NCBI GenBank assembly: GCA_003663055.1 | Contig: QMZF01000004.1 | Coordinates: 1 to 12,766, forward strand | Origin: Archaeoglobales archaeon | GTDB taxonomy: Archaea > Halobacteriota > Archaeoglobi > Archaeoglobales > Archaeoglobaceae | Reading direction: 5' to 3' | Length of the DNA stretch: 12,766 nt | Part shown: positions 7,200-8,296 of the stretch, piece by piece | Numbering within the stretch: position 1 is the stretch's first letter | Layout: every line of letters begins with the position of its first letter | Notes under the pieces: model-generated | Databases searched by the model: none | What the model was told of the DNA's origin: nothing | The model's input: only the letters and a program-made list of their open reading frames with translations | Made by a program: the position numbers and the translations under genes

Positions 7200-8254
7200 G
7201 GTTTAACGTACTCCTTCAAATCCTCTGGCAAGTTGTCCACGTTATCAACACTGGGCACTACAGGCGGCTGACCGAGCTCTTTAAGAATTCGCTGTCCTTC
7301 TTTACTTACAATGAGTTCTATGAACTTCTCTGCGTACTCCTTATGTTCTGCGCTCTCTGGAATCGTTATGCCGTAGATTATCGGCTTGCCTACGACCCCT
7401 TTCCCGTTTGCCAGTACGACCTTTACTTTCTTGTAGATATCCGCATATTCGGCGCTGCTCAGGTCTATTTGCGGTGGAAGTTCAATGAATCTATGGTTGT
7501 GCTGCTGGGCAACGCTGCGGTAGATGAAGTAGTAGTCGATTTCTCCAGTCTCAATTCCGTGAATTAGCTCCATCTCCATGCTTCGAATCATTAGCTTGCT
7601 TGTATCTGGATTTATATCTTCTGACTTGGGCATTCTGAGGATGTATATGCCATTTTCCTCCACGAATTTGAGATTTGAGTGCTTCGCAACCAAATCGTCG
7701 TAAATTGTTGAGTCGTTGTAGTAAAGTTCCGCGAGCTGCAAAACCATTTGCGAACGGTAGCCGCAAGGATCATCGTTCGGATTTGAGAAGCCAAACTTGA
7801 CATCTGGCCTTCTCAAAATCTGGTACCAGTTCTCCGAATTTATTTCGTTGGCGTATTTGCTTTTATCTGTGTATGCGAGCACAATCTGGTTTTTTGCAAA
7901 CATTACAGTCCAGTTCGCGTAGTCAGGATACATCATCTTTGGAATTAGTGTGTAGTCGGCTGATGCAACTATGTCCGCAGTCCTGCCAAGTTCGGTGACT
8001 TTGCGTATGGTTGCGGCACTTCCGGCAGCCTCGCACTGAACTTCTACATTGGGGCACTTCTCCTCAAATGCTTTTTTGAATGCCTTCATGGGCTCGGTTA
8101 AGCTGCCGGCATGAAAGACTTTGAGGACTATTTTTTCGGTAACTTCAGCTTCGGTTTGCCCACTTGTAATCTTTTTTGAATCCTGAATGCCCTGAATACA
8201 TCCGCCGAGCAGTGTAGCGAATACTACGAACATCGCAACTGAACGCTTCTGCAT
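7196..8254 (-). CDS. modA: Molybdate/tungstate-binding lipoprotein ModA/WtpA
   Basis: A 352-residue extracytoplasmic binding protein. Residues 1-19 form a lipoprotein signal ending in the lipobox L16-G17-G18-C19, so the mature protein is probably lipid-anchored at C19. A Gln/Glu/Thr-rich linker follows. Family motifs are FHAGSL (47-52), AAGSAAT (76-82), [12 protein letters not shown] (158-169) and [11 protein letters not shown] (237-247). In archaeal ModA/WtpA an Asp and a Glu complete octahedral coordination of the oxyanion; D161 or D162 and E235 or E238 are the likely equivalents here. Whether it favours molybdate or tungstate cannot be decided from sequence. It is the first gene of the operon, with ATG at 8254, GGTGG 4 nt upstream and an inverted-repeat operator immediately before. 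The stop overlaps modB by ATGA. Confidence 0.94.
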
Positions 8255-8262
8255 GTAACCAC

Positions 8263-8286
8263 CGTTATGTCCATTGGTACATAACG
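8263..8286. promoter_or_regulatory. ModE-box-like operator upstream of modA
   Basis: A perfect inverted repeat with 8-bp arms CGTTATGT and ACATAACG separated by 8 bp (CCATTGGT). The arms resemble the E. coli ModE box (CGTTATAT and its complement around a short spacer). It lies between the modA TATA box (8287-8296) and the start codon and covers the expected transcript start near 8266, so bound regulator would block initiation. The ModE-like gene at the end of the same operon is the obvious candidate binder. The site may also affect any divergent transcript toward 8347. Confidence 0.75.
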
Positions 8287-8296
8287 AATAAAAGTA
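8287..8296 (-). promoter_or_regulatory. TATA box of the modABC operon
   Basis: Minus-strand TACTTTTATT immediately abuts the operator. Its centre is about 37 nt before the modA ATG, which predicts a leader of roughly 12 nt. Confidence 0.5.

Follow-up and report, generated by a model that had tools for sequence, protein, structure and literature searches.

A predicted ModE-type operator at the wtpA promoter of an Archaeoglobales archaeon

Described ModE systems and the box of the window

The molybdenum regulator ModE of Escherichia coli has a site ahead of the uptake gene modA, and we analyzed a similar box in a 12,766-nucleotide stretch of contig QMZF01000004.1 (the window; assembly GCA_003663055.1) of an Archaeoglobales archaeon, where the 24-mer CGTTATGTCCATTGGTACATAACG was found at 8263–8286 ahead of wtpA, the first gene of a predicted molybdenum/tungsten (Mo/W) uptake cluster. 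With a probability of about 0.87, this inverted repeat is an operator at which a regulator of the ModE family, most likely encoded by the final gene of the cluster, would repress the wtpA promoter.

In E. coli K-12, the site CGTTATATTGTCGCCTACATAACG lies 19 bp ahead of modA and has the arms CGTTATAT and ACATAACG; RefSeq names E. coli ModE a dual regulator. PMC545781 gives ATCGNTATATA-N6-TATATANCGAT as the E. coli ModE consensus and two molybdate-binding domains for full ModE; it also describes a ModE of Desulfovibrio consisting of the DNA-binding domain alone, with sensing unexplained. In Methanosarcinales, ModE controls modABC (PMC9765008), and the title of Studholme and Pau 2003 (BMC Microbiol 3:24) claims that the ModE element is conserved in Archaea. 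The earlier annotation of the window from its letters (the sequence-only reading) had proposed a motif kept across domains of life; the sequences agree with this, but, given that title, it is not new. The element common to bacteria and archaea is already known, and the window site is a well-supported new example of modest novelty. The archaeal cases of Studholme and Pau are reportedly methanogens; Archaeoglobi, Bathyarchaeota, and the 22-bp form of the box described below may lie outside their study. Published ModE sites of Archaeoglobi were not found in the literature searched, a weak negative covering titles and starts of abstracts, with subscription papers mostly outside; the 22-bp form with regulators of the periplasmic-binding-protein (PBP) type and the rule on the TATA side were not met in that literature either, its coverage being incomplete.

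Two other archaeal regulators resemble this arrangement in part. MDR1 of Archaeoglobus fulgidus, studied by Bell et al. in 1999, is reportedly a metal-responsive repressor whose operators past the TATA box block polymerase recruitment; it differs from the window system in protein family, metal, and operator. Tfx of Methanothermobacter, as described in PMC3087415, is a DNA-binding protein that acts downstream of the fmdECB promoter, fmdECB being a Mo enzyme operon, and the gene for Tfx itself is repressed with tungstate. By this description, the window system would be like Tfx in having an archaeal DNA-binding protein act downstream of promoter elements.

The window box and the E. coli modA box are equal in 15 of 24 bases, including the first six and the last eight. 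Both half-sites of the window box match the core of the E. coli consensus, CGNTAT-N12-ATANCG (N12, twelve bases of any kind), the frame common to that consensus and the archaeal box. The locus is like E. coli ModE/modABC in its 24-bp frame, in CGTTAT and ATAACG ends with N12 between them, and in the homologous winged helix of the regulator. Unlike in E. coli, the promoter is archaeal, and the window protein has only a tail of about 40 residues where E. coli ModE has molybdate-binding domains past the helix. A ModE helix without these domains is shared with Desulfovibrio ModE and the Agrobacterium protein 2ijl; however, the predicted Desulfovibrio site is CGGTCACG-N14-CGTGACCG (PMC545781), whereas the window keeps the box of the E. 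coli type.

The sequence-only reading had placed a perfect inverted repeat with an 8-bp spacer between the TATA box and the start codon, had assigned it E. coli ModE-box arms, and had put a ModE-like winged-helix gene at the end of the operon. The repeat is exact, the K-12 modA site has the same outer arms and the published consensus fits, and the last gene of the cluster encodes a ModE-type winged helix. The repeat had been read as placed to repress modA; the gene that follows the box is a Mo/W uptake gene but, by NCBIfam cut-offs, is better named wtpA.

In the orientation of wtpA (minus strand), the box starts 1 bp past a TATA-like CTTTTAT (8288–8294), whose score of 5.7 is weaker than in most relatives, and ends 8 bp ahead of the wtpA ATG at 8254; the wtpA transcript would start at the box. 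A ModE dimer would bind the two half-sites beside the TATA box, over the transcription start. With enough molybdate or tungstate in the cell, RNA polymerase would be kept off the wtpA promoter, and uptake would be shut down, together with ModE itself if it is co-transcribed. Autoregulation, as proposed by the sequence-only reading, is a possibility drawn in the window solely from the overlap of the genes.

Conservation of the box and its place in promoters

Perfect 8-bp inverted repeats with a short spacer gave five hits at three places in the window, and 200 simulated windows averaged 4.15 hits; the palindromy alone of the 8263–8286 repeat is at chance level. Palindromy being uninformative, the case therefore rests on arm sequence and conservation. 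In 200 shuffled windows, the 24-mer had a mean of 0.03 matches at up to three mismatches.

We analyzed 59 genomes of the class (G, L, and P numbers are our handles for genomes, loci, and proteins). The exact pattern CGTTAT-N12-ATAACG was found at 14 distinct sites in 12 genomes, and the reversed control pattern gave 6. All 14 sites were at Mo/W uptake genes: wtpA in 11 cases, modA in 2 (each scoring above the modA cut-off), and a tupA-like gene in 1 (187.3 bits, short of its cut-off of 400). Some WtpA match was present in 38 of the 59 genomes, 30 of which, with E values up to 3.7e-67, formed the wtpA set; G004, G014, G015, G024, G025, G052, G054, and G055, with weaker and partial matches, were left out. 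The other WtpA proteins of this set are 87 to 42% identical to that of the window. A 24-bp N12 box was found at 22 of the 30 well-matched wtpA genes, a 22-bp box with ten bases between the half-sites (N10) at 7, and no box at 1 (G026). The refuting condition named by the sequence-only reading, absence of the repeat ahead of orthologous genes, was checked, and the repeat was present there. Counted over ten specified bases, 16 of the N12 wtpA boxes had no mismatch, 5 had one, and 1 had two; among 3000 simulated stretches of about 250 bp, up to one mismatch occurred in 0.4% and up to two in 6%. The middle of the box is variable and the arms are kept, with T/A variation in archaeal wtpA sites precisely at the N positions of the consensus. 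A chance palindrome without function, as such repeats do arise in a window of this kind, was rejected and has next to no probability, since the conserved place, sequence, and gene association exclude chance.

Another regulator than ModE could own the operator, and in some genomes (e.g., G010, G042) the best ModE match is indeed on a different contig from wtpA. Against this, box and ModE match occur together in the wtpA genomes (29 of 30 have both, and G026 has neither), the outer arms equal those of the E. coli ModE site, and the box adjoins modE in Bathyarchaeota; we consider a different regulator very unlikely.

The place of the box relative to the TATA-like element was scored by script at 21 N12 wtpA sites, and the element was 0–3 bp ahead of the box in 20. 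In G062, the script picked another element, and by eye GTTAAAT adjoins the box; a TATA-like element adjoining the box was also seen by eye at wtpA of G020, which makes 22 of 22 N12 wtpA sites overall. The same order of TATA and box was found at the tupA-like gene, at two modA genes (one with a 7-bp gap), at two moeA genes, and at the broken uptake operon of G010. In this apparently decayed operon (L112, about 640–1524), preceded by a one-mismatch ModE-type box, nothing but short frames with WtpB- and WtpC-like pieces was found.

An inverted repeat just ahead of a start codon could also act in the leader RNA as a hairpin or riboswitch, and bacterial molybdenum cofactor (Moco) RNA motifs exist (PMC2408646). 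However, it is the sequence of the arms that is kept, and the middle drifts. The ATG coincides with the box end at moeA of G001 and G002 and is 2 bp from the box at wtpA of G060; judged from the TATA spacing, the transcript could therefore hardly hold both arms. A search of the region 8000–9000 against Rfam gave no match at E up to 1. On this leader geometry and the Rfam result, the RNA element was rejected as extremely improbable.

In relatives, boxes were also found ahead of moeA, AOR-like tungstoenzyme, and fwdDB genes. Of 13 AOR-like loci, nine had at least 71% identity, and seven of these carried a box with up to one mismatch; G007 had two mismatches and G003 had none in reach. No box within two mismatches was found at five of the 13 loci (G003, G004, G012, G026, and G027, four of them more distant). 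The AOR-like sites of G000 and G002 were recovered also by the genome-wide pattern search. At the six AOR-like sites scored, the better TATA-like element was past the box in five, with a tie in G006; a weaker element also lies 1 bp ahead of the box in G005, and the site of G010 resembles the majority by eye. The fwdD site of G010 follows the majority too, with TATA-like elements scoring 6.5 at 21 bp downstream and 5.8 at 10 bp upstream. These data suggest that ModE is dual, repressing uptake genes and, as we infer, activating enzyme genes. The divergent neighbour of the AOR-like genes could be the target of the box instead. In L109 of G010, the box (1501–1524) is between fwdDB and divergent mch (methanopterin cyclohydrolase) and might serve either.

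ModE could likewise bind at wtpA but activate it, or ignore the metal, instead of repressing when metal suffices. The AOR-like and fwdD boxes stand ahead of the TATA-like element, a position suiting activation, the regulator has no recognisable sensor, and one passage of PMC2408646 has E. coli ModE upregulating modABCD, while the paper cites a title that calls ModE the modABCD repressor. At wtpA, tupA-like, modA, and moeA genes, however, the box is past the TATA-like element, and a protein bound there would impede initiation; activation or metal-blind binding at wtpA is very unlikely, and repression is the preferred reading.

The search was extended to 294 genomes of the phylum: an exact N12 site was present in 44 and a control site in 16. 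Of the 55 exact N12 sites, 41 were outside the class, and 18 of these were read as loci; a ModA-like gene was within the same 3-kb locus in 13, and the other five (L154, L155, L156, L159, and L167) had no ModA-, WtpA-, TupA-, AOR-, MoeA-, or Fwd-like neighbour by the reference set. ModE loci of named genomes were analyzed as the best 80 of 119, with positions 3 and 22 of the exact box free. The exact box was found at 24 of the 80 and its reversed control at none: 9/32 in Archaeoglobi (partly the same genomes as the class set), 13/36 in Bathyarchaeota, 2/2 in Methanomethyl-, and 0/10 in others. The 15 boxes outside Archaeoglobi, all in other archaeal phyla, were 49–116 bp ahead of the first matched ModE codon, and 14 had a divergent WtpA- or TupA-like gene on the side opposite modE. 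Some of these modE frames run through the box, which makes the modE start uncertain.

Regulator, metal sensing, and operator length

The regulator of 140 amino acids has a ModE-type winged-helix N-terminal domain, 68 residues of which align to E. coli ModE at 43% identity, and its predicted structure matches E. coli ModE (1b9m). The SARN motif is important in Mop/TOBE molybdate-binding domains. It was present in E. coli ModE and absent from the 140 residues of the regulator, which appears to be of the DNA-binding-domain kind, not a full-length ModE, a point on which the sequence-only reading was silent; a strongly diverged sensor in the tail may still exist. The predicted local distance difference test (pLDDT) values of the tail, 67, 79, 65, and 54 in blocks of ten from residue 101, indicate modest model confidence.

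Relatives ranged from proteins of 104–117 amino acids with hardly any tail to a longer-tailed form of 165 amino acids, and others had a helix-turn-helix (HTH) plus TOBE. The longer-tailed P0005 gave a more confident tail model, with long alignments to E. coli ModE at a root mean square deviation of 11–13; no TOBE match was listed for it, and that of P0015 was no better than E 0.19. A partner protein with Mop/TOBE was searched for in seven genomes. None was found in G000 (76% complete), G001, G010, and G040; G002 and G007 had one match each and G009 had two, all in open frames of 348–428 amino acids.

Operator spacing is linked to the build of the regulator, a link that may stem from few evolutionary events. 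Exact N10 sites numbered 13 in 13 genomes (control 4). Seven of them were between wtpA and a divergent ModE-like gene with open frames of 343–380 amino acids; one of these proteins, when scanned, had HTH_1 and PBP_like (PF12727), and the other six were similar by eye. The remaining six (L080–L083, L086, and L087) were taken as chance, having no neighbour resembling the reference Mo/W proteins and a control count of 4. In the 22 genomes with N12 wtpA boxes, the best ModE frame was 113–165 amino acids long (G060 counted after an in-frame stop). Five of them (G001, G009, G019, G041, and G057) had a further, weak ModE match, with E values between 2.5e-6 and 9.3e-4 and frames of 315–391 amino acids.

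Several results weigh against the proposed ModE operator. The class genomes are related, and their conserved sites are not independent events. At one mismatch, G001, G002, and G010 together had 8 sites and the reversed control 13; at two mismatches, G000 had 29 sites and the control 52. The reversed control being at least as frequent, loose matches therefore count only by their place, and as genome-wide regulon evidence they were dropped. By place, seven of the eight one-mismatch sites were at wtpA (two), moeA (two), one AOR-like gene, fwdD, and the uptake operon that is broken; the eighth, inside surE of G002, was treated as chance. In the DNA searched, 56 of the best 80 ModE loci had no exact box. 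Four of five wtpA loci outside the class were read: G036 had a two-mismatch box and a ModE-like neighbour, and G031, G033, and G039 had no box. Finally, no TOBE match was listed for the window regulator at a maximum E of 10, with filters dropping most matches above about 0.1.

A broader scheme is tentative and rather doubtful as a whole: Archaeoglobi would have kept the classical ModE DNA code, while the regulator shed its metal-binding domain and would read Mo/W through the tail, through a partner, or not at all. As a dual regulator, this small ModE would have its sign set by the TATA side—repression after the TATA box at uptake genes and moeA, activation before it at tungstoenzyme genes—and replacement of the sensor by a PBP-like one would go with an operator 2 bp shorter.

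The gene cluster, its neighbours, and the regulon

The overlapping genes of the cluster follow the order wtpA-wtpB-wtpC-modE on the minus strand (Table 1). WtpA is over its curated NCBIfam cut-off (466.8 vs. 355 bits), with permease and ATPase genes adjoining; these score best with the WtpB and WtpC models, in both cases under the cut-off.

Table 1. Features of the predicted Mo/W uptake locus (positions in the window).
Feature	Position	Strand	Basis
wtpA, tungstate/molybdate substrate-binding protein	7196..8254	-	NF003196 and TIGR03730 over cut-off; PDB relatives AF_0094 (2onk) and MA_0280
wtpB-like permease	6429..7199	-	NF040839, 335 bits (cut-off 340); 4-nt ATGA overlap with wtpA
wtpC-like ATPase, 245 amino acids	5695..6432	-	ATG overlaps wtpB by 4 nt; NF040840, 302.1 bits, scored on the longer frame 5695–6624 (cut-off 440)
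modE-like gene, 140 amino acids: ModE winged helix and tail of about 40 residues	5282..5704	-	TIGR00637, 92.2 bits (cut-off 98.5); 10-nt overlap with wtpC
24-bp ModE-type operator (predicted), CGTTATGT-N8-ACATAACG	8263..8286	none	exact match; same place kept in relatives
Presumed transcription factor B recognition element (BRE)/TATA region of the wtpA promoter, GAAATACTTTTAT	8288..8300	-	TATA-like element scored; counterpart in relatives; inferred

A gene for a radical SAM protein (4330–5223, minus strand; no NCBIfam model over cut-off) is located 58 bp past modE and may be co-transcribed with it. A sufC-/sufB-like pair on the plus strand (8916–10750) is divergent from the wtp cluster; the sufC-like gene scored 205 against an NCBIfam cut-off of 212.8, and the sufB-like gene was about equal to SufB and SmsB, under both cut-offs. 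Between wtpA and the sufC-like gene, which are about 660 bp apart, lies a short open frame of about 41 codons (8347–8472, plus strand) with a possible GTG start, encoding a lipoprotein-like peptide (VKDEKGWIAGVLVAVMLVVGSLAIIGCIQPRTLEELEPEGEK).

The analysis yields a testable Mo/W regulon for Archaeoglobi, comprising wtpABC, modA, tupA-like, moeA, AOR-like, and fwdDB genes, in which one DNA code is tied to the transcription machinery of bacteria and archaea alike. A small ModE with little or no sensor, together with 24- and 22-bp operators that follow the build of the regulator, makes metal sensing directly testable.
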